Assembly: GCF_013426205.1 (NCBI RefSeq)
Contig: NC_089422.1
Location: forward strand, 9,017,001-9,081,000
Reading direction: 5' to 3'
Source: Metarhizium brunneum
Lineage: Eukaryota; Ascomycota; Sordariomycetes; Hypocreales; Clavicipitaceae
DNA: 64,000 bases
Part shown: one piece after another, positions 1,148 to 58,175 of the stretch
Layout of the letters: each line of letters starts with the position of its first letter
Position numbering within the stretch: position 1 is the stretch's first letter
Notes under the pieces: model-generated
Seen by the model: the letters and a program-made list of their open reading frames with translations, nothing else
Database searches by the model: none
What the model was told of the DNA's origin: nothing
Translations under genes and position numbers: made by a program

Positions 1148-1159
1148 GCATACGACCTT
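1148..1159. other. Candidate left end of the accessory element
   Basis: GCATACGACC at 1148-1157 matches the 5' terminus expected of a fungal 5S rRNA (normally ACATACGACC) and could pair with the 3' terminus of the truncated 5S gene at 43.6 kb. It overlaps CGACCTT (1153-1159), which is repeated inverted as AAGGTCG at 43,527-43,533 next to that 5S gene. Both matches are short and could be chance; this is a lead, not a demonstrated boundary. Confidence 0.3.
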
Positions 1160-1292
1160 ATCCTCTTTCAGAGCAGCAAGGCATGTTTATGCCACAAATC
1201 GCGCAGGTCACATTACTGCATTTGGACACTGAATTGGATTGGTTGTTACACCCTCTGGGGCGCTCTTAAACTGTCTAACTTATGGTACCACT

Positions 1293-1767
1293 CTAATAGG
1301 TACTATCTACATTCAGTGTATTATCTGATTCAGTTTCCCCAAGCCCGGCCGAATCTCCGTGCTGGAGATTTTGACGGTTTCGCACTTTGACAGTACGTCG
1401 AGACATACTCAGAGGCTTCTAGGTACAACAGTAAGTTTAGTCTCCCCCGTACGCAATCACGTAGTCACTTGACACTCACCAGGTGCTTCAAAGCAAGAAG
1501 TTCGGCAGACAGCTTTTGTATCTGCTTCTCAGCATTTTGTTTCTCGAGACTCCTGACGTAATGCAAATGCTGAATTTCAGTCTGCAATCTGCAATTCTCT
1601 CTTGTCAAATTAAACAGCCGTGTTTCATACTGCGTTATGGAGCGTAAATGCATGATCTCTGAGCCCAGCGCATTGCGCTCTTGTAGGGATGTGAGTGGTG
1701 CTTTGACACCATGACTCTGAGCTTCTGAATGATCCATCGTAGAATGAGGTGAGGTGTGACTTTGCAT
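1293..1767 (-). CDS. Small coiled-coil protein (two exons)
   Basis: Exon 1 is 1767-1480 and exon 2 is 1418-1293, joined by a 61-bp intron (GTGAGT..CTAG, phase 0); 137 aa. Residues about 30-95 are rich in heptad-spaced Leu/Ile/Val with charged residues (RLQTEIQHLHYVRSLEKQ), predicting one long coiled coil. Exon 2 encodes a basic, polar tail. A TATA-like ATTTATATTTATG lies just upstream. I recognise no family. It resembles in size and architecture the other small coiled-coil genes of this region (7.9, 10.5 and 27.4 kb). A second in-frame Met at codon 11 is possible. Confidence 0.55.
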
Positions 1768-2323
1768 TGTATGGCTTCCCTATTCACAAGGCATTACATA
1801 CTGTATTTATATTTATGGAACCGGCGTTATCTTTGATCGGCCGATGGGCCCCGTCGGCTTCAGTTTCCGGACGGCCCCATATCGGGGCAAAGAGAAGGTG
1901 ATGCCCCGGCTTTTTTTTTTTGTGATGAACCCCGAAGCCCCGCTATTTTCGCCGGATACAACACCCGCCCAGTATTGTGATTCCTACGGACGGCATGAAG
2001 CTAGGCGCCCATAATCCACGAAAGGGTGGAGACAAGGGTGAAATTTTCCAAATAGGTTACTCTGGTGAACATGGGTTGGGGGGTAACACGGCACGGCAAG
2101 TGCTGTTGGGAAACTTTGCTGCTGGGGTGCTTGATTTTAAAGTGGAGACAAGCTGTGATAGAGTTGCCTAGCTGTTACCTACCTAGGTACTTGCTCCTCG
2201 TTTATGCACCCAGCGGCTGGCTGAAGGACTCCCCAACTCGAGTGCTTCGATCACATCACATTAATAACGACGCATGCAAATGCATTACAAACTCAAGTGG
2301 CAATCTATTAATCATTCTATAGC
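1768..2323. other. Intergenic, no gene seen
   Basis: Contains a poly-T run near 1911-1921 and short chance reading frames only. It carries the upstream region of the coiled-coil gene and the 3' flank of the next gene. Confidence 0.5.
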
Positions 2324-3700
2324 TTACAAGGCCCAGGACCAGGGTGTGGCGTCGCGAAGGTTGTTAAACACCTTTCCAGTTCGAGCCAGAGCGCCAAGTT
2401 GCCATTTCTGGCCAACTGCAGGTGGACCAATCGAGCTCCGGAACGACTCGGCTCTCAGCGCATCCGGCTCCGTCAAGTTCAACGCAACGAGGTTGCTAAG
2501 GCGCCGGAGCCTGTTTAGGGGAAGATCCACGCTATGTGAGGCGAATGTCATTCGGGACTGTCGATAACAAGACTCGAATGTATCATGTACTGAGAAAATG
2601 CGACCGTCAAATTCTGTCCAGGATATTCCATCAATATTATCTCGTCTTTCTGCCAGCCAGGCGTCAAGCAGTGCGTGGTGCGATGGCCGAATGAAGGACC
2701 GATACAGGGCCCCATAATCAAGCAGGAAGGACTGGGAGTCTCTGAGTGATCGCGTAACTGGCCCTCCGCGTTTGGCCCGATGGAAAGTAAACCCTTGATG
2801 TCTGTATTTCTTCACGTCAAGGTGGGCGTTCTTGTATTTCTGGCCCGGCCATGGTCTCCACATAGATGAGTGTTTGTCCTTAGACTGGGTGTAGTACATG
2901 TGGCCCGCGCACCATCCACTGATGAAGCACTGAACATGGCTGGCGTAAAAGTCTTTGATAAAGCTCATGCAGCTGTTGATGCCTGAATAAGAAGAGCCGA
3001 TAATTAGTTCGACGCCCTGAGACCCTGAACTGGTTTGTATGTATCCTTGAAGAACACTGAGTGCTTCTCTCGCGCTGCTTGTGTCCTGACTATGCGGAAA
3101 AGCTGACTCTTCTGAAGCAATGCCCAAGGTCGGCTTTTCCAGATCAGATAAATGGCAGGCGTCCGAATTGAGCCTGTTGCCGCAGTTCATCTCCTTGTAT
3201 GCCTTTAATCTGCCGTAGAGCTCTGTTCCGAGTAAATTTTCCGCTGCGGCTGGTTCAAGGGATTCTGCCCTTGAGTTGAGACACTCGAGATCCGCACTTG
3301 AGATGGAGGCCGTTCCAAGTGGGCGAAGCGATCTTGCCACTTCAGCTGCATCAAGCTGCCACGAGACCCCGCAAATTTCCAACACATTGACCATGTCTAA
3401 TACTGATTCCTTGTATCCGGGAACGAAGAAAGTCCATGCCGAGTCTTCACTTGACGATGGGAGGAAGAACCCCAAAGCGCGCGGACCAGTGATAACACAG
3501 CCCGAATCAAACATGGCGGACAATAATGTCAGTGGGTACCGGAACGTTCGCGACAAATACCCAACGGGATCAGCTCGCGACTCGTAGCACTGTTTGAGTA
3601 TCGGGCTGTAGGAAAAAGCTTTTCTCAAGACACAGGCATCTCCTATATCGAGATTTTTCATGACGTTTTGAAGGGCTGTAGATTTTTCTGCGAAAGACAT
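2324..3700 (-). CDS. Orphan-family protein with a nucleotidyltransferase-like N-terminal motif
   Basis: Single exon, 458 aa from the ATG at 3700. A longer reading from 3799 would add a Phe-run encoded by a homopolymer and is less likely. The segment FDSGCVITGPRALGFF...SAWTFFVPGYKESV resembles a multi-copy family in accessory genomes of Hypocreales that I remember as G-S-R-A-L-E-F-F...S-D-W-D-F-Y-V-P, a pattern like the G-S..D-x-D motif of nucleotidyltransferase folds. Here the acidic pair is replaced by A and T, so catalysis is doubtful. The middle part has LIIGSSYSGINSCMSFIKDF and FISGWCAGHMYY; the C-terminus includes LLDAWLAERRDNI and WTEFDGRIF. The fold assignment is inference; no function is known to me. 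Confidence 0.65.
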   Translation of the reverse strand: MSFAEKSTALQNVMKNLDIGDACVLRKAFSYSPILKQCYESRADPVGYLSRTFRYPLTLLSAMFDSGCVITGPRALGFFLPSSSEDSAWTFFVPGYKESVLDMVNVLEICGVSWQLDAAEVARSLRPLGTASISSADLECLNSRAESLEPAAAENLLGTELYGRLKAYKEMNCGNRLNSDACHLSDLEKPTLGIASEESAFPHSQDTSSAREALSVLQGYIQTSSGSQGVELIIGSSYSGINSCMSFIKDFYASHVQCFISGWCAGHMYYTQSKDKHSSMWRPWPGQKYKNAHLDVKKYRHQGFTFHRAKRGGPVTRSLRDSQSFLLDYGALYRSFIRPSHHALLDAWLAERRDNIDGISWTEFDGRIFSVHDTFESCYRQSRMTFASHSVDLPLNRLRRLSNLVALNLTEPDALRAESFRSSIGPPAVGQKWQLGALARTGKVFNNLRDATPWSWAL

Positions 3701-5422
3701 CTTGAGGGAAGGTGGGAAAAGAGTTTGGCAGTGTTCTAGATGTGTGGCGTTGGTACAGAAGATGGTCGAGATGCTGAAAAAAAAAAATAGCCCTCTCACT
3801 TGAGCCTTAGCACCTTTAAATAGTTACATGCTCTGATATGTCTAATAAAAAGAGCAGGTTTATCATTCGACTTGATCTCACGTTTGTACGTGTTTCGCAG
3901 CTGAATGCCTTGATGCCTCTCTTGCTCAACAGTCTGGTACTAAATCTAGTTCTGGTCATACTAGGCTGGGCCGTCTCAAAGCGCTAGCTGAGGGCGCGAG
4001 AGCACCACTATCTTTAGTCACAGCGGCTGTCTTCAACCGACCACATTTCTTATTCCTCATAATTCGGCAAACAGCATTGAGTAGTTAGTTTTTGAGCGCT
4101 TAGCACACCTGCAGGCTTCCGGCATTGGAAGATTGCTAATATTTCGGTCTCGCAATGGCTGTGAGAAGACCCTGCTTAGATTAGTAAAATTGCAATTTCG
4201 TAATAAGGTACAAATTCTCTCTAAGAAATTAGGAATTGCATGGAGAGGCAATTTGATCTCGTCCTGGCGGTGAGCGTGGGCGCAACTCGACGCCGGTTGA
4301 CCGTTATGGGTGGAACAGCGGACATGCACGGTAATCCTAGGTGTAATGGGACGCTACGCTTTCGGGGGCTTATCCCCTAAGTTTTCACATGGGCTTTAAA
4401 CAATTAGGGAAGTTGCTGGTATGATCCAGGAGGTGGTGCCGGTAGCCTCGCTTGCAAGGTTACCACCACTCAAAGGGTGCTGGTAGCTTGCTTCAGAATG
4501 CTACTGGTATCAGCGAGTTATCGGTAACATTCATCGGTCGGCTGCCAGTAGTAGTGGTTTGCTAACTAAAAGTTACTAATAACACGGCTCTTGAAAGCCA
4601 TCGGGTGCTGGTAAACGATACGGAATGAGTACCTGGTACTAGAAGATGTGGCCAGCGTTACTGGCAGCACCAATTTTCTCAAACGCGTTGGCGACTGGCA
4701 GCTGGCTTCACCAATGAGCCGCGAGTCGGCGGCCGGTTACAAGGATGTTGGGGTTTGCGCAGATGCAGGCAAATTGATATGTCATTATTTTTTCTATAAC
4801 TAACACTAGCTGAGAATGGTCTGATGTGTACCTAGTAAATAGACTAGCTAGACGACAAGATGCCCTGCAGTAGCCATACGGCGACCGAGACCTAGGCTTA
4901 GGGTGTGATCTTCTGTGAGTCCGCCCCCGCCTTCCCCGGCGACTCTTGGTTCGAAAGTCGTCACTTTGGCGTGAAGACCGACGGTTGCGAGATGATTCAA
5001 TCCGGTCTAGTCCATTTTGTGGCTTTAGTAAATGTAATACTGACGAGACTTACTGGTTACCCTACAGTTTGGTGACGGCATAAGCGCACGCAAAGGCAAC
5101 TGAAAGCTTGACGAGAGTCATGATTGCAATGTATCCTGGGTGGCATCTATGTTGCCGTTGTACGATGGGACATTGTGCCTCTTTGTAGAGTAGCTCTATT
5201 TAATCGAAGAGAGCTTGCGGCAATCTAGGCAACCTTTCCACATTGTGTTGGACCAGTGTTGGCAACTGGCAGATCTAGGCGCTTTCAGCCCACCACAGTT
5301 TTTCTCGGTTGTCATTGCCACCATGTCGTGCGTATACCCCAATCCGAGCTGCATAAAAAGCGCCGCAGCCCTTTGCTTGTGTTTCAAGCGGCGCATCTTA
5401 AAATTAACTTTCACTCCTCACA
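3701..5422. other. 1.7 kb without a convincing gene; degenerate repeats at 4.4-4.7 kb
   Basis: Only short unconvincing frames occur. From about 4430 to 4680 there are repeated variants of GGTGCTGGTA and its inverse TACTGGCAGCACC, plus scattered GGTTAC/GTAACC words up to 5060, suggesting a decayed repetitive element. A CATAAAAAG TATA-like word at about 5351-5359 belongs to the next gene. Confidence 0.4.
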
Positions 5423-6295
5423 ATGCCCGTTGCGTTGCCCACTTTTCGCCAGCTCCTTGCTCAGCTCGGGTATGGTGACTTCGGTCACCCCCAGACAACG
5501 ATCTTCGTCCATGACATACTGGTCTTTTTGAAAGCCATAAATCCTATGAAATTCACGTATTGTCCATCTTACGATGCTACGCTTGAGGTTTATCATGGGC
5601 TTTCACGGCATTTTTTAAACCTACTCGGACGCGGCGATATTTATTGGCCAGCAACTGGAGACGCTGGCCTTGTGTATGCCGCCAATCTCCAGAAGTAAGC
5701 TCTTTATTGTATCTCATTAATTACGACTCTAGTTAACACGTCAGGTAGAATCCAGACACTTGTTGGGTATCTTTTTTTTCGCCTTGCTGAGGAAATTCGG
5801 CGCTGGAGGCGGACGCCTTCTTGTCGAAGTCGCGATGTTAGAGACGGCTTCAGTCTCGAAACACTCTTGACAAACAACAATGCTAATAGCATAATCCAAC
5901 AGGATATCATTACTGACTATATGACAAATACCTGCCACATTGGCAGTTTCCAGTTCAAATATAGCCTAGGAGAAGACTTCAATGGGTACATGAGCTATAA
6001 AACGTGGGAGCCTCCACATAAGTTTAAAGTCACGTCGCTCTCAGAGCTCATGAGCGAACTACCTGGAGCGGGTGACGCATCTGGTGTAAGAATTTCATTC
6101 ACTGGACCTGGTTTTTGTATTAGGGGAGTTACTGTTGATGAGAGTGACTTTAAGAGACTAAAGGTTGAGCTGAACGACCAAGTCTGCCGACTCTTGATCA
6201 ACCGCAAAACAGTTTGGGATAACTTCAATGTACATGTCCAGATAATGATTCTTAGAGAGGTTCGACCTACGAGTCACTGGATCTTCTCGGAATAG
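5423..6295 (+). CDS. Hypothetical protein, two exons
   Basis: Exon 1 is 5423-5694; exon 2 is 5749-6295; intron 5695-5748 (GTAAGC..GTAG, phase 2). The spliced frame is open for 272 aa. An acceptor four bases earlier would give an immediate stop. Features: no signal peptide, a basic patch after the junction (RLAEEIRRWRRTPSCRSR), and a mixed alpha/beta-looking C-terminal half. A TATA-like word lies about 70 bp upstream of the ATG. I do not recognise the family; the exon structure and clean frame argue for a real gene. Confidence 0.5.
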
Positions 6296-6847
6296 ATGAA
6301 GAATGCCGAACGCCGAGCTATACGGACATTATTTAGGCTGCCCTTCGCTTAGTAGTCAGTGTCACCATTTTGTGATTGTGACGGCCCGTGCAGCCTGCCA
6401 GCCAGGGTAAATCGCACAGGTTGGGCGGAAGGTGGGACGTGCATCTGGCCATGGAGGAAAGACGTGGGGGAGTCAACTCCACATACTGAAGCACCTGAAG
6501 CATGAACGGTAGGGTTGGCGTCTGCCATTGTGAGGCTTACTAGCGTAGGCCTCATTGTCTGTCATTGGGGCCCACATAGTGCGGACCGTACCGTCGGTAA
6601 CCAACTAAAAGCGATAGTCACAGCCACGCCAGTCGTCGTCTTCATTTGGCCAACAGGCTTCCTTCACAAAAAACAGGCCACATGTGCACATCTCCTGAAA
6701 GCCCCAGTTTTTATTATTCAAGTGCCATATACATCCCGTGCCCTAGTGTTGAACTATTGCAGAATCGACAATTTGCTTTCGTAATGTCTCCAATAAGAAG
6801 GCGAAGTTCTCTTCACGAATCCCCCTGTCCCACCTCCGCCACCCGAA
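6296..6847. other. Intergenic, no gene seen
   Basis: Only overlapping short frames on both strands; no recognised motif. Lies between convergent 3' ends. Confidence 0.4.
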
Positions 6848-7438
6848 TCAGCGCCTCTTGTTTGGTGATTGCGGATAGTCTTCCGCCTTCCGTTTCTGAC
6901 CCCGACTCCCATTGTGGCAGTGCATACCATTCAGAAGCATCGGCGATGGTCGGCTGTTCTGGCTGACTGGTGGAGGCAGCAGCAACGGGGAAGGGGTTGA
7001 CAGGTCTCGCTGCGGCTCTTGCGTGCTCACAGCTGCGGCAGCGAACCTGTTGAGCGGGCTGGCTACCGGGACAGGGGAGTGCTCTAGTCGTGGATGAGGG
7101 TCAAGGTACAGGGTAATTCCGTGGCACTCATCCCCCTGGAGGTACAAGTCCGTGTGGATAGACAAGAACGGGCCTGGGCATGTTGACGGCACGGTATGAG
7201 GGAAGAAAGTCAAAGAGACTCTAGGAATATTGCTGCTGTCAACGATCTGTGGCTCCACATCGTCTGTTCGCCCGGGTGAGGGTGTTGGGAACCACAGACT
7301 GATTCCGCCATCTTCATCAGTCAGTGATTCCAGCGTCGCGATGCCACGGTGCAGTTGGTCTTTGCACTCCAGAACCACATAGACTCCAGGCCGTCCACGG
7401 TTGTTGGCGTCGACAACTTTGCAGGTAATTGGTGCCAT
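6848..7438 (-). CDS. Transthyretin/HIUase-like domain protein with basic C-terminal tail (intact copy)
   Basis: Single exon, 196 aa. Residues 1-120 follow the 5-hydroxyisourate hydrolase/transthyretin pattern: an opening ITCKVVDANNRGRPGVYVVL strand where family members usually have I-T-x-H-V-L-D, then a T-D-E-D-G-G turn, then a LTFFPHTV..PFLSIHTD..GITLYLDP block. The usual catalytic His of the first motif is Lys, and the C-terminal Y-R-G-S motif is absent, so it is unlikely to be an active HIU hydrolase. A Pro/Ser-rich linker leads to QKRKAEDYPQSPNKRR, a bipartite nuclear-localisation-like tail. TATATATA sits about 50 bp upstream. The 5' part of this gene is inside the duplicated block; the last 39 codons lie outside it. 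Confidence 0.6.
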   Translation of the reverse strand: MAPITCKVVDANNRGRPGVYVVLECKDQLHRGIATLESLTDEDGGISLWFPTPSPGRTDDVEPQIVDSSNIPRVSLTFFPHTVPSTCPGPFLSIHTDLYLQGDECHGITLYLDPHPRLEHSPVPVASPLNRFAAAAVSTQEPQRDLSTPSPLLLPPPVSQNSRPSPMLLNGMHCHNGSRGQKRKAEDYPQSPNKRR

Positions 7439-7484
7439 ATTGTCGTTTATGGTAGTTTCCGTTGATTATGATTCTTTGCACTGG

Positions 7485-7492
7485 TATATATA
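7485..7492 (-). promoter_or_regulatory. TATA box of the transthyretin-like gene
   Basis: TATATATA, 47-54 bp upstream of the ATG at 7438. An identical copy serves the chimeric gene at 12,563-12,570. Confidence 0.45.
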
Positions 7493-7871
7493 TCTCGCCT
7501 CAACGAACTTCGGCGGCTAACGATCTTCAAGATCTACGGAGTATCTTTACTTTAAATCTGTCATTTTGGCCTTCAAGTGCGGGACGAGGTTTAGGACCTG
7601 ATCTAATGGTCCCACGCTCATCCGCTTCTCGATTTACCAGCTTGCAAGGCCCCGGGCCGTCTCCACTCTTTTACGGCTTACCGCCGTGATGTCGGCCGGT
7701 TCTCTTGCGCCAATGTTGCATCCTTCACTCGAGATTTTGGGGGTGTGGGCGGCGGGTTGGGGATATGGGCAGTGCTGGTTTCTCGGGCGTGCACTTGCAT
7801 GTCCAGTCGCATTCGGCACCTGGGCGCTTGCGCGTGTCCGGGATCAATAGTATAAGGACAACGTCGTGTAT

Positions 7872-8396
7872 TTATTTTAAACTGGAGAAATAATCATCCC
7901 TAGACAGGCTAAAATTGCGGAGGAGACCGACCCCCTTGCGCCTCTCATCTCGCTTTGCACGGCGTCTTCCGCTGCAGTTGCGTCCCAGGTGGCCTCCACC
8001 ACAGTCTCTCGATAACCCTAGAACGCAGAGCAAATGGTATTTGATAACGTGGGCTAGCCCATCATCCTGCCTTTTTATGTATTGCCTGTAGGCAGAAAGT
8101 TGTTGTTGTAGCGCGATATTCTGGCTGTCTGCCTCATGAAGAGATATACACAGGCCGGCGTTTTGTTTCTGAAGCTGAGATACTTGTCCTCTCAGTGCAT
8201 TGGCAGTGTCTTGGCTCTTGGCAGATTGGCCAGGTAAGACCAGACGACGATTGGCAATGGGGTGGTGTATGCCTCTTTCGCTCAAGTCGGCTTGCTCGAG
8301 CAGGGATGGGAGCTTTTTGGACGTGTAGTTAGCCATGGTGAATCGGCGGCGATTCGTTTGCACTTGGATGGCCACGTATGCAGGCAAGATGGACAT
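7872..8396 (-). CDS. Coiled-coil protein with Arg-rich tail (copy 1)
   Basis: Single exon, 174 aa; a start at codon 21 (MANYTSKKL, 8336) is also likely. Residues about 60-120 contain heptad-like RGQVSQLQKQNAGLCISLHE and NIALQQQLSAYRQYIKRQ, a coiled coil. The C-terminal 50 residues are basic (GRRRAKRDERRKG), possibly a nuclear-targeting or nucleic-acid-binding tail. No family recognised. An unrecognised intron near the C-terminus cannot be excluded. Confidence 0.5.
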   Translation of the reverse strand: MSILPAYVAIQVQTNRRRFTMANYTSKKLPSLLEQADLSERGIHHPIANRRLVLPGQSAKSQDTANALRGQVSQLQKQNAGLCISLHEADSQNIALQQQLSAYRQYIKRQDDGLAHVIKYHLLCVLGLSRDCGGGHLGRNCSGRRRAKRDERRKGVGLLRNFSLSRDDYFSSLK

Positions 8397-8529
8397 TGAA
8401 GTAGTATGACGGCTTAAATCAATTTCTCACACAAAAAACTAAAATCGTACACGGATTACCTTCCAACGTTCATGCAGCCTCTGTCACTTGCCCCGCTCAA
8501 CCCCCACCCGTGTGTCCGTTGGTTGCGCA

Positions 8530-9146
8530 TTAGCCCTGTTTCTCAAGATCTTCCTCGAGATTTACGCCAAGAATGTGTGGCACCAATCCCCTGGTAAAGT
8601 CTCGAAGACTTTGCTTCAGGTCCTCAACTACCTTGATCATGCCTTCAATGACTGCCAGGCGACTAAGCATGTCGGAAACATGGTTGCCCATCTGATCCAT
8701 GGTTCTATTTCCAGCAGTTGCGGTCTGCTCCAAGTTGGCCATACGTTCGTTCATCCCAATCAACATCCTGAGTGGTGACTAGGTCAGCATGCGAGTTCGC
8801 CATCCTCAATGTCGTTAGAAAGGACCTACCATCTCAAATCGTCGTTGGTGGTAAGTGCGGCATGTAATGTAGATTGATCGTAGGGTGGCAAGGCACTCCC
8901 ACTGAATGCCCCATCAACTTGAAGCAAACTACTATTAAATCCAGACCATTGTGCCCCTGGATTAAGTGCAGTTTGCCCAGAAACGGTTGGCTCGCAGAGC
9001 ATTGTTGCTGATGAGTTTATGGGGAGAGTAGACGAGTCGTGATCCAACTGTGGAACAGCAGAATTGGATACGCTGCTACGCTGTGGATTTTTGGGCGTTG
9101 ATGGCCCTTGTGTGCTCGCTGACATATTGAAGGTGAAGTAAGACAT
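8530..9146 (-). CDS. Hypothetical protein with C-terminal coiled coil (copy 1)
   Basis: Exon 1 is 9146-8830 and exon 2 is 8767-8530, with a 62-bp intron (GTAGGT..CTCAG, phase 2); 184 aa from MSYFTFNMSAS. The N-terminal 105 residues are Ser/Thr/Asn/Pro-rich and look disordered. Exon 2 gives an amphipathic helix with heptads (MNERMANLEQ, SRLAVIEGMIKVVEDLKQSL). No family recognised; the architecture is that of a small regulatory or dimerising protein. A reading from 9236 would add 30 hydrophobic residues but has no obvious support. Confidence 0.5.
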
Positions 9147-9413
9147 GATGCTGTTGCATGAGAGGAGTTGGACAAACAGGAGTTGACTGACGTTTGCGCC
9201 ATCTCCGAGCAAGGCCGCAATTAAATAAACACACATTGCACAGATTTCCTGGTAAGCGCCCGTTAAAGTAAGGCAATCCTAGAGATCACACCAGGATACA
9301 ATTAAATATAAACGGACTTAAAAATAGGTACGTCTCTTGGGTACAAAATGGCCCGATTGACTGCTCTTGCTTCCGAGCCAACAGCATCACTAGAAATAAT
9401 TAACGGCAAAGAA

Positions 9414-10374
9414 ATGTATCGCAACGACGTCTTTTCGATTCTGGCGTGCCTGCTATGGCCGGCCACTGCAATCCATAGCATGTGCCTCACCTCCCCGGTC
9501 GTCTCCCTTGAGGCTGGACAATCGGTCTTGTCGGCTCAGTCAGTTGCATCCCGAGGACCATGACGCGGACACTTGCTAACCCGCCTACACAGCATTAACG
9601 CTCCTCAGTCCACAAGATGTCAAGCCACCATGAGTTTTGGCGATTCCTCTTTCCTCCCTCTGCGCTTCAACTTCTCCACCACACCATGTGAAGGCCAACT
9701 GATCGCAAAATTTACCACCCCTGCGGAGGTCCCCAATGGGGAAGCAGATATCTTTTGGTGAGCACAATAACCATTCCATTGCAAACAGGTCGACTAACTG
9801 TGGTAGGCAATGCGCCGGACTGGCTCCATACTGCTATCAGGCGAATATAACGAATGGCACATCTGATCCTACCATGCAGCTTGATAGGGAGGCACAAGTT
9901 GGATGCATTAACGAGGTACTCAGAACAACCAGTGTCCTTGTTGTCAAAACCATGTCCACTCGTACAACAACCGAAACTGCAGTGTCAGTCTTTACCTGGA
10001 CAACGACTAGTTTCCCTAGATCACAGGAGACATCACCCACAGTCACACTCCCGTCCCAGTCATGGGTCACTTCTGGGGTGGCAACACCATCATCTACAGT
10101 GATGAACAAGGATCCAACGGGGACGGACACAACAGCCGCCCGGGCTCCGGCTGCTGACTCCGTTCGAGTGGAGATCCCCCGGTCCGATATGATCGGAAGA
10201 ACTGTTAGAACCACATCTCCCTTGCCTGTGACAACAGACACAGTCTTTGACAGTGGCGCTTCCAAGGTCACCACCCCTCTTGTCACCTCTGCGGTGACTA
10301 CATTTTTGACGACGACACTATTGCGGACCGTAACGGTTAGTTGCGCAGCAGGGAGCGCAACAGGGAAGGCATAA
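9414..10374 (+). CDS. Secreted or surface Thr-rich protein (copy 1)
   Basis: The start at 9414 gives a signal-peptide-like N-terminus (MYRNDVFSILACLLWPATAI). Exon joining is clear at the second intron, 9758-9807 (GTGAGC..GTAG), producing EADIFWQCAGLAPYCYQANI. The first intron lies between about 9490 and 9612, but its donor is not canonical and I could not fix it; an acceptor at CTCCTCAG (9609) fits the frame. The core domain has paired Cys (TTPCEGQL, QCAGLAPYC, QVGC) and potential N-glycosylation sites (NFS, NITN), followed by about 120 residues rich in Thr/Ser/Val, typical of an O-glycosylated stalk. The family name is unknown to me. Confidence 0.5.
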
Positions 10375-10518
10375 ATGGATCTTAGCTTGTGCATATTAGA
10401 CTCTGGTCGGACGTGTTGTTGAGCTAGTTTAGGTACTGAAATACATACTTCATCGATTTCCTCTCCGCCTGGTTTGCTTTTACGCATACTTGCAAATTTC
10501 CTCTGAAAGCATCTGATA

Positions 10519-11572: not shown

Positions 11573-11877
11573 TTTACCTGGTGTGGAAAACCTGCTGATT
11601 GCAAGTCATGTTGGTTCACTCGTGCCTTGTTGCAGGCTGAGGCCTAATCCCTAACTACTCGTAACCTCTATACCAGTTGCCAATTTTAACTTTAGTACAC
11701 CTGCTACTGCCAGGGTATATGCCATAGAGGTTCGGGGCTTCTTAAAAATAGGTCACCTAGCATTGCAGTTTGCCGCGCGCTTGGCATGTGAGGAAGTTTT
11801 GGTGTCCCGACCACCACACATCTGGCACGCTATAGCTCGCGGATTATGGTCTACGTTTAGTGAGAGAACTCCTGGTA
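11573..11877. other. Intergenic inside the duplicated unit, no gene seen
   Basis: No recognised feature; duplicated at 16,650-16,954. Confidence 0.4.
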
Positions 11878-33056: not shown

Positions 33057-33083
33057 ATGAGTCAACCATTAAAATACAGGAAT

Positions 33084-34324
33084 TCATAACTCCGTCGTGG
33101 TCGTCTGTGTAATTTTTGAACTCTTTCTTCTAGACATTACTCCCCAAGCCAGCTGCACGACTATCGTCAGTACTACCGTAACTACGACATACATCCAGGC
33201 CCATGCAGACACCCGTGGTTTCTCCGAGTCTAAGAAATTGAAAAAGGTCATCGAAAAGAATGTCTTTAGTCATTGTCAGTAAACACGTTCGTATTTTAAA
33301 AATTTTGGTTTGGTAACTTACAGCTGTAAAGGTGGCAGGAAGGAATAGCATCGTGACCGCAGCAATCACCTGCATTGCTGCGCTGTCTTGTGCAGCTGCG
33401 AGCGCCACTGCCCGAGAGTCTCTTGCTATTTGGATCATCAGCTCGTTGTCTTGCCGACCGAGCTCTGCAAGTGACCTCATGGCCCCGTTCTCCTTATGGC
33501 TTTGCTCAGCGATTTCGCGAGACGACTGAGCAATTTCTGTATTTGTTGAGCTATCCTGGGACGCAATGAGGCAATAGACCTGCACTAATTAGCTTGCGGC
33601 TCTCTGAGTGGGCTGTGTTTCATACAGTTTGGCTTTGCGCTGTAGCTCGCTCTGACAAATAGCCGCAATTCGCTGCGACCCCTAGAAACCAATTATCTAT
33701 ATGCTGGAGTTTGTAAACAAGTTCTCGTTGGTCGTTATCCATAATCAGTAAGTTAGTACTTCGAATCATCTGCTGCACAAGATGCCTTCCAGTCTCTGCC
33801 TGCATCTTGATGAAGGCAAATCGAGCGAGAAAGCTGCTAAGTTCACGAGTAATTGAGATCAAATCCAGGTTCTTCCAATCTGAAGCGTTGTTGCCCCTTT
33901 TCTCATGCGGATAATTGAACTGTCTCATCCCAGTCGTGGTCTCAATAGCATGGATGTGCCTCCTACAGTTTTTAATGGTCATGCTGAGGCTATGAGCTTG
34001 CAGCTCCATAGCTATGGTGGGAATCAGCATTGGCCCGTGTATTCGGGGTAGCATTGACTCGACATATTCGAACAGATCTAGCAGTGTCGAAGATTCCACT
34101 CCAAGTATCAGGACACGAGTTTTGAGGGTCCTAACATTGTGATTCATCGCTATCGAGAACGCAGAGTATGCCCCGTTCTGCTGAATAACGTATTCTGGAC
34201 TGTTATTAAGTAGCTTTCTTGACGCAGGAAATGTAATAGTTTTACGAACGTATACTTTCGCATGTTGAAACATCCTCTGTGCCGCTGGCCGGAACTGTGT
34301 CGGCATACATTGCCAGACCGGCAT
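33084..34324 (-). CDS. CorA-like membrane protein
   Basis: Exons 34,324-33,626, 33,579-33,322 and 33,263-33,084, joined in frame (GTATGA..GCAG and GTAAGT..AAAG); 378 aa as given. The C-terminus has the CorA-like end of many fungal orphan proteins: a helical region rich in RDSRAVALAAAQDSAAMQ, first membrane segment VIAAVTMLFLPATFTATFFS, then SMTFFNFLDSEKP and a second segment around MYVVVTVVLTIVVQLAW. The G-M-N ion-selectivity motif of true CorA channels is replaced by F-S-M, as is usual in these fungal members. An additional upstream exon starting near 34,366 (MQVFDLPASFLTALNAGLA) fits family N-termini, but I could not find a compatible splice junction. The role is unknown. Confidence 0.7.
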
Positions 34325-35265
34325 TCAGGGCAGTTAAGAACGATGCGGGCAGGTCAAAGACTTGCATCGTATGCTGAAACAATGTTCTGGAGATTGGGAG
34401 AGGTAGTTTTCCATTACGTTCGTTCGTGCGATTCGTGAATGCCCTGTCGTTTTATTACCCGTGTTCCACCAATTCGCAGACCAGTACAAATACCTACAAT
34501 ATACACATATTTGACTGTATATTAGTAGAGGAAACAATTAGTGGAAGATTTTTATAATGATGATCGAGCAGAGAGTGTGCCTTATCGTTATCGTCAAGAA
34601 AGCTATACACGTCTTTTTCAGTGTCAAACGTGAACCTCTTCGGTGGGGAAGGAACTGAGCTCGTCGGGTTTGGAGGGCCAACTGTTACACCCTGGCGGAA
34701 AATGGCATAATTAGATCAGCGAGTTATTTCCTGGGTGAGTTTGTTGCTATTTGCGAACCTGAAGGATTGAAGAAAAGGCCAGGCATTGGTTAAACTCGCC
34801 AAAGAGTTCTGGTTCCTCACCCAGAGAGGAAGAAAGCCATTCCCACCCCGACATCGCGGAAGATGTCACGTTTTGGTGTAACCCGAAGAGAAACGTGGAG
34901 GTAAGGGCTCAGTCCCGGTAGACAAACAAAGTTAGAGCCGGAGCAAATCTTCACTAAATATATTCAGCAGCTTAAAAATGCATTCGAATAAAAGCTGGTG
35001 TATTTGAAGGTTTAAGGTTTCAGTTGGGCATCAGCGCTGGCAGGTCGTGTCAGGCAGCGAATGCGTGTGGCTATGTCGACAGAAAATGGATCAGTCACAA
35101 GCGGGGTCGACAAAGTGAGGCTGCGTCGCAGCTCTTATTACCACTCAATGGCCTTATTCTTGTATTTTTCTTACACATTGAGAAATTCGTCTTCAGATTT
35201 ATTTGTCCCTGAATATCTGCATTTAAACAGTGACGAATTTGGACCCCTCCACGTCTGTGGAACAA
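34325..35265. other. Intergenic, possible upstream exon of the CorA-like gene at its left edge
   Basis: 940 bp. Apart from the possible first exon of the minus-strand gene (34,366 downward), no gene is seen. Confidence 0.35.
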
Positions 35266-38200
35266 ATGAACAGTGGTGGTCAATCCACAGCTTCGGCTCC
35301 TGGGATCAGGGTCTTGGTTGAGCCTGCAGAACAAGAAGTAGGCAGTCCCAACAAGAACGATGACGGAATTGAGTATGTGCTCTCATCCTGGACTAGTCAC
35401 ACATTGTTGACGCTCTGCAGTATAGTCGCAATTCACGGAATTGGAGCCGACCCGGACAAAACTTGGACTGGGCGGGGGCCAGCCGGGGAACGAGTCAGTT
35501 GGCTCTCGGATTCTGGAATGCTCCCTAAGGCGGTACCTACTGCCCGGATTATGCGTTTTGGATATGAATCCGCCTGGTACGGCACTAAACTGGACGAGCC
35601 CAAGAAAACACACGTGTTCGACGTAGCTGAAATGTTGCTCAAACAGCTGGAACTCAATCGCCAAGTAAGCCAGAATCTATGAGCGCCTGCCCTTGTGCTA
35701 AGGAGTAAATAGGATATTACTCGGCCGATAATATTTATCGCACATAGTTACGGTGGCCTTGTGCTTATGCAGGCTCTTAGACGCTCCTTCGACAATCCGA
35801 ATAAGTGTGGGCATCTATTCCGGTTTACAGCTGGTGCCATATTTTTTGGAACACCATTTCGAGGACGGAGAGGCCTTACGCTAGCTCAAATTATTGAGGC
35901 AGTTGCACAACATAATCCGGACCTTCAAATCTATTCAGAAACGATGGCGCTGTCTGTTGAAGAGAATCCCTATCTTCAGAATATAGTCTATCAGTTTACA
36001 GAAACACGTCGCTGCGATCATCCGATACCACTTTGGTGTTTCTACGAGACTAAGCCAAGTCCGATAGGCAAGACACTGCTAAATAGTGCTATAAAAGATG
36101 TAAGTCAATCGTCGTAGCTGTTTGACAGCTGGCATATTAATCGTATTGCAGGGGTACCTCATACCAGCGGAATCAGCATGTTTAGATCCATCCAAGAGCA
36201 TAGAACGGTATCCTCTGGAACGTCATCATTACAATCTCCAGAAATTCTCCGGCCCCTCAGATCCAGGGTATCTAGTTGCCAAGAAAGCAATCGTGGACCT
36301 GGCTACAAGAGCACATAACTACCTTCGAGAATGTTGTATTGGTAAGTCGATTTTGCTGCCACACTATGCTGATAAGCGTGCTGGCTGAACGAGTTCTACA
36401 ACCAGATAGGACGCGTGCTAGAGTGTGTATGGCACCATTAGCTCAGGAAAATTCACTAACTCAATATAAGATAGGACGCAGAAATCTTGCTATCATATTG
36501 AACTTGCCAAGAACAATCAATTTACCGGTCGCAACTCTATATTAAAGGCGATTGAGCAGAAGTTCTTCGGCAAGGACCAAAGCCAAAGGATTGCGCTCGC
36601 CGGACTCGGCGGAGTAGGCAAAACTCAAATAGCTTTGCATTTTGTCTATCAATTAAAGGAAAAGCGACCGGATTATTCGATCTTTTGGGTGCCACTTCTG
36701 GGTCATGAGAGCGTGGAGCGGGCTTACAGAGAAATTGCCAAAAAGCTTCATTTGCAGAAGAGCAGTGACAACGAGGATATGAAAGACATGGTTTACCAAT
36801 ATCTCAGCTTGTGCAAAGCTGATAAATGGCTCTTTATTTTGGACAACGCTGACGATCAAGAGCTTATGTTTGGATCCGCCCACAAGCCAGGTGTAGAAGA
36901 GTATTTGCCTAAGAATGAAAACGGCATAATCTTATTGACGACCCGATCTAGGCAAGTCGCGGTCGAGTTCGCACGAGCTGATGTGATCGACATCGAACAA
37001 ATGAATCAAGAAGAAGCGGCGAATCTCTTTAAGAAATCTTTAGTTCAAGATCAGCCGCCTCTGGACGAAGCCCTTGTCACCGAGCTGCTCACCTATCTAA
37101 CATTTCTCCCGTTGGCTATCACGCAGGCTGCAGCATATCTAAACGTGACCATGGCGCCTATTCAAACTTATTTGGGGCTCTTGCGAGGTGCTGAGAAGGA
37201 CGTTACCAGATTGTTGGGTAGAGAATTCAAGGACAGCACCCGGTACAGGGGTTCCCGAAACGCCGTAGGAACAACATGGCTAGTGACTTTCGACCAGATC
37301 GAAAAGTCGGACCCGGTCGCGGTCGATCTGTTGTCATTTATATCATGCATTGAGCCGAAGGCAATTCCGCAATCGATATTATCAAATATTGAACCTGAGC
37401 AGATGGAGTGGGCGGTTGGCACGCTTCGCAGCTACTCGTTTCTGGTTCGTCGGGAAGATAGTAGCACGTTTGACATGCACAGTCTTGTACACATGGCGAC
37501 GCGAGAATGGGTCAAGAGGCAGGGCCGGAGGGAGGAGGTGGTGAACGACGCGATATGTCATCTTGCAAGGATCTTCCCTCCAAACAACCGTGCTAACCAT
37601 GAGTTGAGGAGAGAGTACCTACCACATGTGACGCGGTCTCTGTATCAAAATGATGAGCAATGGACAGATGATGCCTACTATCTGTTTGGGGAAATTGGAG
37701 ATTGCTTCTACAACGACAGACGATTTAAAGAAGCGGCGAAGTGTTACGAGGCCGTGTGTCGGTGGCAACAAGACCATCTTTCCAAAGACGACCATAATGG
37801 ACTAGCATCAGAGCACAACCTTGCAAGCGCATACCTCAGTGACCGACGCATTAAGGATGCGATTGAGATATTCGAGCGTGTGGTGGCAGTTCAAAAGGAG
37901 ACGCTGGACGAGAAGGACCATTCTCGACTAACATCAGAGCACGCACTTGCAAGCGCATACCTCGATGACGGACGCATCAAGGATGCGATTAAGATACTCA
38001 AGCATGTAGTGGCAGTTCGAAAGGAGACGTTGGACGAGAAGGACCATTCTCGACTAACATCAGAGCACGCACTTGCAAGCGCATACCTCGATGACGGACG
38101 CATTAAGGGTGCGATTAAGATATTCGAGCGTGTGGTGGCAGTTCGAAAGGAGACGTTGGATGAGAAGGACCATTCTCGACTAACATCAGAGCACGAACTT

Positions 38201-38476
38201 GCAAGGGCATACCTCAGTGATCAACGCTTTAAGGATGCGATTGAGATATTAGAGCGTGTGGTGGGAGTTCGAAAGGAGACGCTGGATGAGAAGGACCATT
38301 CTCGACTAACATCAGAGCACGCACTTGCAAGCGCATACCTCGATGACGGACGCATTAAGGATGCGATTGAGATGCTTGGACGCATTGTGGCTCTGGAGAG
38401 TGATATACTTGCTCATGATGACCCAAGAAGACTGTTATCCGTTGACTTGCTTACAGAAGCATATGGGAGAATGTAG
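35266..38476 (+). CDS. NLR: alpha/beta-hydrolase, NB-ARC, TPR (STAND immune-like receptor)
   Basis: Six exons: 35,266-35,372; 35,421-35,664; 35,713-36,099; 36,152-36,341; 36,406-36,422 (17-nt microexon, alternative: one intron to 36,470); 36,482-38,476; 979 aa. The hydrolase head has IVAIHGIGADPDKTW and nucleophile Ser129 in IAHSYGG, followed by GAIFFGTPFRG. NB-ARC: P-loop GLGGVGKTQIAL (about 356-367), Walker B WLFILDNADDQ, LLTTRSR sensor, LPLAITQAAAYL, and an MHD-like FDMHSLVHMATREW. The C-terminal TPR domain is built from nearly identical 42-residue repeats. Such proteins act in non-self recognition or regulated cell death in fungi by family analogy. The reading frame is intact. Confidence 0.88.
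37789..38410 (+). repeat. 126-bp tandem repeats encoding the TPR domain of the NLR
   Basis: Units begin at about 37,789, 37,915, 38,041, 38,167 and 38,293, each opening with GACCAT. Three to four are almost identical at DNA level (CTCGACTAACATCAGAGCAC recurs). Such homogenised repeats are typical of fast-evolving NLR ligand-sensing domains. Confidence 0.85.
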
Positions 38477-39302
38477 TTGTTAGACGAGACTACATACAAA
38501 GCATAATCTAAACGTTCAGACCTTCACACACTCTCTCTGGCGTGTTGTGAGCTATGCTATCTACCCATGATAAAAACAGGAGTAGCGAACTCGCCCCTGT
38601 GGTTAGCATGACCGGAAGAAATGCGCCTACGCCACAACAAGCTTTTTTAGAAGGCGTTTACAAATTCTCTTGCGCAATAAACCATGTCACAGCTATGGCC
38701 TGCTAAGCTAGACAATGCCGATGCCCAAAAATTGTCATGACTACTGGATGAGATGGTTCGAGACATCTATCCAAGTGCTGAACGACATCATCACGATAGC
38801 TCACACTCAAAACTAACAACGGCCTCTCAAATCATTGTATCATCTTCTACACGCCCCAAGGTAACTGGAGACAATGTAGTTCATTAATTTGCACATCCCT
38901 GTAAACATACAGGCACACATATTTTTAGATCGACCCATTTTACCTGTATCAAGACAAACGAGATCGAGATTAAGAAAGCAAGCAAAAACAAAAGTGAATA
39001 AAGGGGAGAATTTGATACAGAAATTTTAAACATATAGGTAATTGATAGTGATATTCGGAGAGGACTCACGTGACGCTGGATACTTTCGCAGCTTTACGCC
39101 ATGTAGTCGCTCCACGTGGTTCTTGAAAGGCCCAAACTGGTTAGGAAGTCACCCAAATGCTCGTGAGTCGATTGTTGGCTTGTTGGTCAGTCTGGTTGTG
39201 AAAAGCGGCTTATGAAGTAGGTCGACAGCAACTGCAGGAGAAACTGTCTGCGAAGGCCAAGTCAAAAACATAAGATAGCGCCTAACAGGCTATTCATTAA
39301 TG
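38477..39302. other. Intergenic, no gene seen
   Basis: 826 bp, AT-rich in the middle, no recognised feature. Confidence 0.45.
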
Positions 39303-39956
39303 TTATCTACTCGATCTCGTAGCTAAAGCAAGACGACCAGACCTACGCATCTCCTCATCCCACGTAACTTCGTCGTACTCATTGAGGATGAGCTCCTCGG
39401 CTTCTTTCAATGACCGAGTTCCCCAGAGGTCCTCAAGGGTGCCCCAAGTTGGCTTCCAACAGATCTTGAACTGAATGCGTCCGCCGACACCTTCTCGGAC
39501 CGCTCCTAAGCGTGAATACTCAAAAACCTGTGTTCTGCTAACCGCGGCGCGCTTCTTCTGAATAAGATGTTCGCCAGAGACAGTAGTTCTCGTTGTATTA
39601 TTCTTTCGCTTCTGATTACTCCGTCGGATTCTCCCAGTGGTCTCTTCATCGTCCGCCACACGTATTGTAGCACCTTCCAAGTCGGCCTCTGGGCTAACAG
39701 TTCGCGATGTCATATCTCCTGAATCCAAGTCGGAGCCTCCGAGACCACTTTCAAGGACGGACTGAAGACGTTCTCGAGAGTTTTGCGGGTCACTGCCGGG
39801 GACAGAATCGTAGTGCCTTGCATTGACAGGTGAGGAACTGGCTGGGGGTGCGAAAGACTCCTTTGCGGATACAAAGGATCGTAGCAATGAACAGCGGCGA
39901 GTGGGGGACGGCCAGGAATAATTCTTCTCTAAAGTAATTCGATCCATCCTCACCAT
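39303..39956 (-). CDS. Hypothetical protein with chromodomain-like C-terminus, beside the captain
   Basis: Single exon, 217 aa. The N-terminal 110 residues are Ser/Asp-rich and disordered, with a basic cluster (GRIRRSNQKRKNN). Residues about 155-205 (GRIQFKICWKPTWGTLEDLW, then an acidic helix) resemble the V-x-W-x-G-(x)n-W chromodomain core, and the end reads TWDEEMRRSGRLALATR. It lies 283 bp downstream of the captain on the same strand. The chromodomain call is tentative; a chromatin-targeting helper is conceivable but unproven. Confidence 0.5.
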   Translation of the reverse strand: MVRMDRITLEKNYSWPSPTRRCSLLRSFVSAKESFAPPASSSPVNARHYDSVPGSDPQNSRERLQSVLESGLGGSDLDSGDMTSRTVSPEADLEGATIRVADDEETTGRIRRSNQKRKNNTTRTTVSGEHLIQKKRAAVSRTQVFEYSRLGAVREGVGGRIQFKICWKPTWGTLEDLWGTRSLKEAEELILNEYDEVTWDEEMRRSGRLALATRSSR

Positions 39957-40239
39957 CGTGAAGTTAGCGTTCGCCTGAAGACGATGAACGCGAAAAACAA
40001 TGGGGGGAGTCCGGTAGGGACGTTCAAGCTCCCTTTATGGACGGAAGGGTAAGAGTGCTCTGTTGACAAGAGTAGAAGGAAGGCCGGTTAAGCAAAGGTA
40101 GGCCGGGAATGATAAGTTATAGGTAAGATTGAACAAAGGTTTGAGTTCTTGCTAAGCTTCAAGGGCGGGCACGGTCCCTTTTATGCTCATCACCCATCTC
40201 TGGTCACGGGTCTGGTCTCTTTCAAAACGGCCAGGCTGA

Positions 40240-42988
40240 CTACTCCCTTCCATCAACCCAGAACTCTTCATCCGCGTGAGGATCAGGTGATGAGACTTCC
40301 CAATCCGAGTCACCACTAGTATGTGCGTAAGGTTGTGATAAGGCCGTTTTCGCCCGTTTATATGGGAGGGGAGCCGATGGTACAGCGTTACCTGCCTTTC
40401 TCTTGCGATCCACTTGTCGTCTTCTCGCAAGCTCTTTTCTGTGTTGCGCCTCGGCAGGGTTTATGTCTATTGGAGCGATTTCAGCATCTGAACATGAGGT
40501 CTTGTAGACCTCTATGGCTCCGAGAACTCTGTCACCTCCGTGAACGTCTGCTACGTGGGTGATCCAGCCTCCCATTCCCTCGACTTCGACCTTCCTGCCC
40601 TCTTGTAGACATGCTGGACATGAGATTGGCTCGTCAAATAGCTCATGATGAGTGTTCAGGTGGCGAGAGAACCCTCTCTGTTTGTATTCTTGGTCGCATA
40701 AGAGGCAGAGAACATCCGGTAGAGACTCTAGGTTTGGGGTGTGAACCGCGCCATGGACTCTTCGAACATGACTACTCCAGGCACAGGGATTCGCCTCAAT
40801 CACCACATCTCCAAGGTTCATCCGCTTGCACTCGGGGCACAAGAACCGGGCCTTAAAGATATGCATGTGTAGATGGCGAACATGTCTTGTGAGCGCTGAC
40901 GTGTTAAAGAAGGTTCCACAGCCAAAGAGACATCGCGCGGGTTCCTTCGATTCCTTCCTGAAATGATGAACATCTCCAATCTCGTTCAGTACGCTTGCTC
41001 CGCTTATAAAAGCGACAAGACGATCTGCTAGAGCGGAAGTGATATTCGTTTGGAATAAAAGACTAGCCAGCTTAGCGGCATAGGCACTGCTATTTCCGAA
41101 CCTCTTTCTTTTTAAATTTTGCACCTCTTGTTTAAGATGTGCCGTTGATTTGTTCATTGCACGTAGCTTATCTGCTTCCTCAAAGTACTTGCGGCGTTTT
41201 TCCTGAATTTCTAGTCTCTCTAGGCAGTCAAGAGTATATCTGATTCGCGATGAGACTTTCTTTGCTTCTTGACTAGATGACCCTTCTTTGGCTGTGATGT
41301 ATTTCAGCTCCTTGCGAAGCTCTGTTATATCTTTTCTTGATTCAAATTGATCAATTTCCTTTTTAGTTAGACGTGTAGGCGCGTTTGGGTCTCGATTATG
41401 CAGGCTATTAGAGATAGCTTCCCAAAGCGCTGTGTCATGCCTTGCTTTATCGCCGAATGCGATATTCGCCAGGTTCGCACGCAGTCTAACTGGTTGGTAG
41501 CTTCGCTCAAATACCTCGGTGGAATGAGATACTATAAAGTTTCGAAGTGCCGGTTGAAGACATCCTAGGGATAAACGGTTAGAGGCAAGAAGGTACTCCA
41601 ATTCAGAGGCAGCTTACCATCCAATCTACCCACCGCGCCAACACGAACTGAGTAGGGACGGAGGCTAGATCGAGATCCCAATACCATTCGCACCTCGTTC
41701 CAAAGATTAATAAATTTATGGTAATTCATTGGCATAATATACTTATCATCACTCATAAACTCCTCTTTCCAGCGCAACTCTACAAAGTTAACGCCCTCCT
41801 CGAGTGTTTCAGGGTGAAGCACCTCATCACAGGACGTAAACCCAGCCTCAAAGGCATTATCTCTTATTGCTCTAATTGTGAACATGGTAGTTAAGCATAG
41901 AACTAACGTTGGAACCACGGAGAGTGCGTAGCTCAAGCTATATGAGCCGCTTATTAGCTTATTTATCAATTATGAGTGATGGAATAAATTACTGGGATCA
42001 TTTACCTTGAACGTTGTTCTCGCTCGATTCTAAGCCGTCGAAGCTTGTTATGATCAACGGTAGACCAGCATATAGTCCGCGTAACAGATGGGTTAACAGG
42101 ATCTCTAACCCACGCGAGCTTTACATGATTATACTTCTTCAGTTCTAACGCTCCTGGCCGCCAACCTCCTAGACCCATTTCAACAACATACATAGTGAAA
42201 GAGAGTCTATCGTCAGGTGAACACCTAACATCATTTGCTCTATTCCACAAAGTGGAAAGAATAGTTAAAATATCGTCTGTAGTCGCGCCATCTTTTTGAA
42301 AAGTCTGCCCCAAGTTTAATCCAACTTCTGTGCCGAACTCAGGAATCCACTATAGTTAATTAGGGATTAGAGAAGTCTGTTGATAAGGAGAGGGGCCAAG
42401 GACTCACACGAGCTATCTCATAAGTAGGACCGCAAGTCGATGAAGTCCTCCTAGAAGAATACTTCAATGACCAGATTCCGGCATTCTCGCGATCTTGAAG
42501 CCTTTTTGGTTTCATAATCCGATCGTCTGCATGATTGACCAGCAAACACCATACATCTTCTATTGTTGACGCGCAATTAATCGTGTGTACTTCCTCATAT
42601 TCCTCAGGGCCAAGGCAGGGACGCAACGTCACAGACTGCTCCCAGTATTGTCTGAGAAATCCTTGGAAGATGGCTTGAACTTCTGGTTTGCCTAAGCAAA
42701 GGTCAAACCATATATCGACCGGGTCGACTTCAGCGCAAGCGGCAAATCTACATGGAATAAAATCAGTAATAGCTCACTGCCTAGGAATAAAGATAAGAGG
42801 GGGATGCCTCACTCTTCCCAGTTCTGCCAGATCCTCTCGCGACGCTGCCTCGTTTTTGGGTCAAGGCGGCAAACCTCACTCAGCGGCTTCTCCTGATACT
42901 TTTGCACCGCCGCCTTAGCGGCATCTTTGTTAAATTGACGCACACTTGGGCGGGCAAAGCGAAGCGAAGATTTCGTATCTCGGGGCAT
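40240..42988 (-). CDS. DUF3435/FluG-type tyrosine recombinase with C2H2 fingers (Starship captain candidate)
   Basis: Five exons: 42,988-42,813; 42,747-42,408; 42,349-42,006; 41,937-41,618; 41,564-40,240; all introns GT-AG (53-68 bp) with matching phases; 834 aa. Tyrosine-recombinase residues visible: Arg236 in GLGGWRPGAL, Arg385 in LRPYSVRVGAVGRLDG, His407 in IVSHSTEVF and nucleophile candidate Tyr416 in FERSYQPVRL. A coiled segment (about 460-560) precedes four zinc-finger-like blocks between 605 and 736 (for example CLFGCGTFFNTSALTRHVRH, CLLCDQEYKQRGFSRHLNTH). Captains catalyse excision and insertion of Starship elements, and are normally the first gene, reading inward from the 5' end, as here. 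Caution: zinc-finger DUF3435 proteins also exist outside recognised Starships. Confidence 0.8.
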
Positions 42989-43526
42989 GATGATAAAGTG
43001 AGCGAAGGCAGCTTCAGTGGCAGTACAGGTGAATGAGAAAAGGGGGCAGAGGACTGAATGTCATGGACGGCAAACCAACCAAGGACAAATGAAAGGGGGA
43101 GAAGGGGCATTTTATCTAGTCAGCCCATCACTTGAATTCAATAAGGCCAACGGGGCCCTGCAGTACACGTAGGCATTCTCAGGTGGGATAATCACGAGCT
43201 GACCAACACGGCACATTGACGCCAGGCGGACTGAACATGGACCTGCGACAAGACCAATGGAGAAAAAGACTTGTCGATAAAACCAGGGGGAGAGGAAGGG
43301 GTGGCGGCGTCGGGCGCCTCCCCCGAGCCTGGCGAGGATGTCATGCGAAGGCCAGGGTCGAAAACAGGCAACATGAGGGTGTGTATTACTACGCGGCGTG
43401 CGGTCTCGTCCATTGCCCGGCGCTTCGGTATCGGAGTGGAAAGCCCGGGGACAGAGAAGCAAAACGGTGGCAGGATGGGGAAACGGAGAGGACGGGAAAA
43501 GCGGGTCCGGACGGGCGTTTCGGGTA
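42989..43526. other. Upstream region of the captain up to the proposed element end
   Basis: About 540 bp, increasingly GC-rich to the right, no gene. It would hold the captain promoter and the element's terminal sequence. Confidence 0.4.
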
Positions 43527-43533
43527 AAGGTCG
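43527..43533. other. Candidate right end of the accessory element
   Basis: AAGGTCG is the inverse of CGACCTT at 1153-1159 and immediately precedes the remaining 5S rRNA sequence. A 7-bp match is weak on its own. Confidence 0.3.
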
Positions 43534-50620: not shown

Positions 50621-50623
50621 CTC

Positions 50624-58143: not shown

Positions 58144-58175
<32 letters not shown>

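Follow-up and report, generated by a model that had tools for sequence, protein, structure and literature searches.

The stretch of DNA analysed here, called the window throughout (64,000 nucleotides; window 1-64,000 is chromosome 1 (chr1, C1) 9,017,001-9,081,000 of Metarhizium brunneum), contains the right-hand 43.6 kb of an element, about 102 kb long in all, that we regard with high confidence as a Starship, one of the giant transposons that carry cargo and are mobilised by a tyrosine recombinase. It is inserted into a 5S rRNA gene. The Starship identity proposed in a first-pass annotation of the window is upheld by two copies at unlinked 5S genes, the second on chromosome 7 (chr7, C7), by homology between them that stops at the 5S halves, by an 8-bp duplication and by a captain recombinase lying 570 bp from one end. 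The best ends of the chr1 element are 8,958,265 and 9,060,558, giving a length of 102,294 bp, more than twice the approximately 42 kb first assigned to it, and element sequence therefore extends 58.7 kb leftward beyond the window start. The sister element on chr7 is bounded in the same way and occupies 2,430,918-2,539,691 (108,774 bp). Genome searches covered all seven contigs (37,771,916 bases). The principal features are as follows, negative window positions elsewhere in the text lying to the left of position 1.

1..43558, no strand: right 43.6 kb of the element, which runs leftward to chr1 8,958,265 (window -58,735), from the colinear chr7 copy and the split 5S ends
42988..40240, minus strand: captain, a DUF3435 tyrosine recombinase of 834 aa, with exons 42988-42813, 42747-42408, 42349-42006, 41937-41618 and 41564-40240
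42989..43558, no strand: right (captain-side) terminus, common to chr7, with an AT-rich relic at C4:4,360,840(-)
43559..43566, plus strand: right copy of the 8-bp target duplication ATCCCGTC, 5S nt 33-40
43559..43645, plus strand: beyond the element, the remaining 3' portion (nt 33-119) of the interrupted 5S rRNA gene
43646..64000, no strand: right host flank, without chr7 homology past the 5S part and with host-type genes

At the right end, homology between chr1 and chr7 runs to 43,652. Its final ~94 bases recur at 26 other places, and in two of these the match spans just 54-58 bp. Rfam called a 5S rRNA in three of four loci scanned, the remaining locus being the chr7 element end, and 23 of 27 5S matches were above the Rfam threshold. 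The remnant in the window fell short of the gathering score and was not called, with 33.3 bits where the threshold is 38, because just nt 33-119 of the gene are left. The element ends at 43,558 and the remnant starts at 43,559 with ATCCCGTC, so that the right boundary originally placed at 43533 proved nearly exact, to within 25 bp. The left end was sought with the first 16 bases of 5S, allowing up to one mismatch, which gave 32 matches. Among these, the 5S starts at C1:8,958,225 and C7:2,430,878 lack a 3' part, and both run, right after CCCGTC, into a common element terminus, AAGCTCTTCTCC. On chr7 the 8-bp direct repeat ATCCCGTC (5S nt 33-40) is perfect on both sides of the copy. When the two 5S halves are joined they come to 119 nt at the chr1 and the chr7 site alike, the length of 8 of 10 intact genes; their best identity to the ten intact genes is 93.3% (chr1) and 89.9% (chr7), and the ten differ mutually by 1.7-10.9%. 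Both chr1 halves have the rarer helix-II variant ACTAG/CTAGTG, which is present in one of the ten intact genes.

The second copy came to light through a 1,374-bp stretch containing the last captain exon, which has one further genome match, at 98%, on chr7. When 138 kb on and around the window was set against 133 kb of chr7, several colinear blocks were found between window -42.5 and -29.1 kb. Colinearity then extends over a long run (about -22.0 to 31.7 kb) and over two further blocks, a short one spanning 32.2-32.5 kb and one spanning 39.2-43.65 kb. Most full kilobases outside a tandem duplication are 97-99.9% identical between the copies, with dips to 89-96%. One dip of ~3 kb (window -14,429 to -11,426), at 89-94% amid stretches of 96-99.9%, may hint at recombination with a third copy. 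The two copies are unlike each other in three stretches, which are the leftmost 16-20 kb, the interval from window -29.1 to -22.0 kb, and the interval 32.5-39.2 kb. On both sides homology stops at the 5S halves, and the flanks beyond them are unrelated, being 49.8% and 44.9% identical between chr1 and chr7 when a shuffled left flank gave 48.4%. The element combines a captain near one end reading inward, direct repeats at defined ends, and large, variable cargo (102 and 109 kb, with three differing modules). Eight shared open reading frames (ORFs) were compared; none had an internal stop in either copy, and dN/dS was below 1 in six, 1.34 in one and undefined in another. A signature of repeat-induced point mutation (RIP) was looked for in 2-kb bins of both long copies and none passed both thresholds set. 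The transition/transversion ratio, taken over chr1/chr7 matches longer than 1 kb with tandem paralogues counted more than once, was 1.51, and with no bin over the thresholds RIP damage of the window copy was rejected.

The DUF3435 recombinase reported at the right end, reading inward, was borne out. Spliced from five exons it is an uninterrupted protein of 834 aa that matches PF11917 at 79.1 bits (E 4e-22), its start codon lies 570 bp inside the right end, and its C terminus carries four C2H2 fingers. Its chr7 counterpart has no coding indel, and the captain is uninterrupted in both copies of the element. Its best homologue comes from M. robertsii, a protein of the same length with 91.7% identity. 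No Aspergillus name appears among the 31 captain homologues listed (7,994 candidates scored), and a profile search from 20 of those 31 gave 10 proteins, three of them new (one from Pochonia), and no other captain family.

Several observations weigh against the interpretation of the element as a Starship that entered a 5S gene by way of this captain. The left target copy on chr1 has one mismatch to ATCCCGTC, and the chr7 halves come from different helix-II variants, GCTAG and CTGGC, which could still pair via G-U. Control cross-pairings of halves from different sites reach best identities of 88.2-94.1% to intact 5S; because these score about equally, the identity of the joined genes shows that a 5S gene is restored but does not tell which half is the correct partner. 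Terminal inverted repeats (TIRs) were sought as the best local match in the terminal 80 bp, which was equalled or beaten by 297 of 500 shuffles for chr1 and 122 of 500 for chr7. In a Foldseek search with a model of the M. robertsii homologue the best 21 rows, all Cre or the Cre-derived recombinase Tre, speak in favour of the interpretation, and the E-values of 0.005 or weaker and TM-scores of at most 0.17 by query length speak against it; the VIA-align list, containing no Starship or Crypton recombinase, was uninformative. Both the captain (MAA_08028) and a PLP-like cargo gene (MAA_08021) also occur in M. robertsii. As the two hits report the same contig size, 4,491,770 bp, the element or a relative is probably present in that species as well; whatever the M. 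robertsii site, movement is shown by the occurrence of both copies in a single genome at 5S genes that are not linked. The remaining two points, a second left terminus on chr1 and a second DUF3435 gene on chr7, each bear on an alternative account.

Next to a 5S half of its own, a further left terminus is present at C1:8,954,916, 3.3 kb outward of the inner end, and joining from there would give back a 119-nt 5S gene just as well. It is conceivable that this is the true mate of the right end, which would make the element ~105.6 kb long, or that two insertions together make up a composite left end. The outer 5S half has the identical ACTAG variant, and a HET-domain gene (108.2 bits) sits between the two left ends (C1:8,954,916-8,958,224). 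The inner terminus, however, has a 5S half of its own, is closer to the right end and aligns for longer to the chr7 terminus (213 vs 174 bp). We therefore hold the outer mate or the composite to be unlikely, and take the inner terminus (8,958,265) to be very probably the mate of the right end. Both chr1 left 5S halves carry the unusual CGCAAACCCGTC.

The second DUF3435 gene lies in the chr7 copy at C7:2,433,734-2,434,842(+), 2.8 kb from the left end. It is unrelated to the right captain by tblastn and shares 77-88% nucleotide identity with C4 copies located around 653 kb and 793 kb. A recombinase of this family might be the mobiliser and the right-end gene a passenger, and the C4 relatives do lie inward of two solo left ends, by ~19 and ~71 kb, in matching orientation. 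The chr1 copy, on the other hand, has no left-end DUF3435 gene, and the chr7 match contains stops, though introns could explain them, while the right-end captain is uninterrupted, lies 570 bp from the end and is present in both copies. This makes a mobiliser from the left-end family highly unlikely. We infer that cutting and pasting of the element is the work of the right-end captain and of no other DUF3435 protein, and that this captain is still active.

Segmental duplication of host DNA between chr1 and chr7 would also account for the tens of kilobases that are colinear between them, but both copies end at the identical 5S point with unrelated flanks, and solo left ends with the same terminus occur at other 5S genes, so that duplication in place of transposition is extremely improbable. 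Finally, a complete 42-kb Starship at 1148-43533 has next to no chance of being right: it places the captain at the right end and the right boundary to within 25 bp, but the chr7 copy passes 1148 unbroken and the left terminus follows a 5S half 58.7 kb further left.

The left boundary at 1148 was rejected on the alignment of window 1-2400 with chr7 2,492,715-2,495,116, which is unbroken at 99.83% identity. Because of this continuity position 1148 is interior to the element, and an empty site joining ~1157 to ~43534, as once envisaged, is not expected. The empty site predicted from the ends given here would instead join chr1 8,958,264 to window 43,567 (9,060,567), restoring the 5S gene. Host genes had been supposed on both sides of the element. 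Those to the left of 1148 were not confirmed, as the sequence there is that of the element and continues so for 58.7 kb past the window. The right flank does contain host-type genes, among them a sugar transporter (47870-49687), an MBOAT gene (60475-61449) and a tRNA-Arg gene (50534-50621).

The two copies belong to a larger family of related insertions. Seven left ends were aligned, two paired with a right end and five unpaired, and in all seven AAGC follows directly after the 5S half. The unpaired ends are at C1:8,954,916, C4:673,124(-), C4:722,355(+), C7:559,515(-) and C1:6,640,311(+), the last being degraded. Seven orphan matches to the 5' part of 5S were inspected, and an element terminus was found in four (L038, L039, L040 and L044); L041 and L042 were discarded as chance matches and L043 as a divergent intact 5S gene above the Rfam threshold. 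The right-end relic at C4:4,360,840(-) has 76% identity over 150 bp, and its inward 300-bp bins contain 7-32% G+C, a composition that looks as if it had been left by RIP. The solo ends on C4 are also AT-rich inward, resembling RIP. A tblastn search with the M. robertsii captain in seven solo-end or left-end loci (L037-L040, L044, L028 and L029) found none at E <= 1. The five left-end relics, together with the one AT-rich right-end relic, point to repeated colonisation of 5S genes.

We suggest, as the simplest account, that the captain would recognise a core at nt 33-40 (ATCCCGTC) of dispersed 5S rRNA genes and would recombine the element ends with it, leaving the 8-bp direct repeat, and that each insertion would split one 5S gene. 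Such a target, one of many dispersed and redundant genes, would always be present and its loss could be tolerated. The C2H2 fingers of the captain may help to locate 5S DNA. Zinc-finger motifs are found in the reading frames of the unrelated chr7 left DUF3435 gene too, and their presence is therefore not enough to mark a protein as a 5S binder. A more far-reaching proposal, and one that we think rather unlikely to hold in full, is that the captain belongs to a separate, mainly Hypocrealean DUF3435 lineage whose four conserved C2H2 fingers read 5S DNA in the manner of the host factor TFIIIA, that its 5S targeting arose independently of Enterprise/Osiris, and that the elements are renewed by swaps of cargo modules between co-resident copies, one of them on dispensable chr7.

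The cargo was characterised by Pfam scans of selected ORFs, and the features in this part of the window are as follows.

6964..17118, no strand: tandem duplication, copies A (6964-12041) and B (12042-17118), each a hybrid of two diverged chr7 paralogues
17812..19815, minus strand: DUF3723 gene (PF12520, 167.4 bits)
20375..22388, plus strand: PLP-like gene without a detectable patatin domain, homologous to M. robertsii MAA_08021 (96% over 63% of the query)
23563..25520, plus strand: weak ferric-reductase-like gene, with NAD_binding_6 below cut-off
32125..32972, plus strand: NLR-like fragment, with DUF7069 at its cut-off of 27 bits
32472..39233, no strand: cargo module in the chr1 copy, its chr7 counterpart being a different 9.5-kb module
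35227..38476, plus strand: NLR with a weak alpha/beta-hydrolase region, NB-ARC and a TPR array of 126-bp repeats, from domain matches

The passenger genes originally named fared unevenly. DUF3723 was confirmed at 17812-19815(-), and so was the NLR at 35227-38476(+), with NB-ARC at 57.8 bits and TPRs at 98.2 bits; its alpha/beta-hydrolase region, at 18.0 bits, is below cut-off. The TPRs are encoded by the 126-bp repeats at 37664-38419, which are 83-90% alike in four of five units. Repeats of this kind also occur in fast-evolving fungal NLRs. The ferric reductase stands only weakly, its sole domain match being to NAD_binding_6, which scores 18.3 bits in a single exon and 16.6 when exons are joined, against a cut-off of 22.2. 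In the case of the PLP-family gene the patatin domain was not found: none of the seven patatin matches in the genome is in either element, and neither of its ORFs (20375-21412 and 21441-22388) matches a Pfam family. The weakest of its four homologues, at 22% identity, carries PF01734, and for this reason the gene could be a degenerate PLP relative. No Pfam match over curated cut-offs was obtained for the genes described as BRCT-like (25850-27082) and CorA-like (33130-34324), nor for a MADS-like gene that had been given no coordinates and for which 1465-1779 was tried. Many further ORFs of the element in the window are likewise without an assignment. At 32.5-39.2 kb chr1 carries the NLR and chr7 a P-type cation ATPase. 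To the left of the window the cargo includes a PNP-NACHT-ankyrin NLR, a fungal protein kinase (469 bits), a chromo-domain protein, a transcription-factor-like gene and an EST1-like gene. A 99-bp repeat array at window -56,154 to -54,685, its units 78-86% alike, lies within the ankyrin repeats of this left NLR.

The duplicated genes noted earlier are real, and copies A and B are 99.98% identical. The corresponding chr7 paralogues (2,499,662-2,510,638) are just 73.5% alike over 4.4 kb. Over its first ~2.75 kb copy A agrees with chr7 copy 1 (96-99% identity) and over the remainder with chr7 copy 2 (97-100%), and copy B equals copy A in every bin. Such a hybrid pattern is characteristic of paralogues that underwent unequal crossing-over and were then duplicated anew, though it is possible that so nearly identical a tandem is an assembly artefact. 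In the right host flank, two diverged direct repeats of ~50 bp are present at 56396-56659 with a spacing of 152-153 bp.

Starships, 5S targeting and these passenger families are already known. A literature search for Starships with Metarhizium or Beauveria found, by title and the start of the abstract, no paper about the Starships of these genera, and the element may be catalogued elsewhere; a search by locus tags of the M. robertsii region found none. The main text of a comparison of M. brunneum strains (PMC11457142) does not contain 'starship' or 'DUF3435', and that of PMC7842015, the available part of which reports chr7 of M. brunneum ARSEF 4556 as dispensable, does not contain 'transposon'. 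Location on a dispensable chromosome could help the chr7 copy to spread. The present analysis gives ends to the base pair, a target and a captain for giant transposons in an insect-killing fungus used in biocontrol, and matching ends with different cargo in one finished genome make the gain and exchange of Starship cargo testable.

The closest known system is that of the Osiris Starships of Aspergillus fumigatus, which have captains of the Enterprise family and, according to the portion of PMC12153272 available to us, insert into and fragment 5S genes. The same portion associates direct repeats longer than 6 bp with 5S rDNA targeting, gives mean lengths of 38-138 kb, and reports TIRs in 18 of 20 A. 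fumigatus Starships. The Metarhizium element resembles Osiris, as far as it is described there, in its DUF3435 captain, in its insertion into and fragmentation of 5S rDNA, in a direct repeat of more than 6 bp and in a length within that range; it differs in host and cargo, and has no TIR above shuffles whereas 18 of 20 have TIRs. A preference of some captain families for 5S rDNA is also stated in the accessible text of PMC12134995, where the domains of captains and Cryptons are said to have a very distant relationship and large cargo is treated as characteristic of Starships. Cryptons are likewise fungal tyrosine recombinase transposons, from which, on that partial account, the Metarhizium element is set apart by its size of ~100 kb and its large cargo. 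With Starships in general, as these excerpts portray them, it shares a captain, direct repeats and large cargo with DUF3723 and NLR genes, and it is distinguished from them by the presence, in one haploid assembly, of two full-size sister copies with alternative cargo modules.

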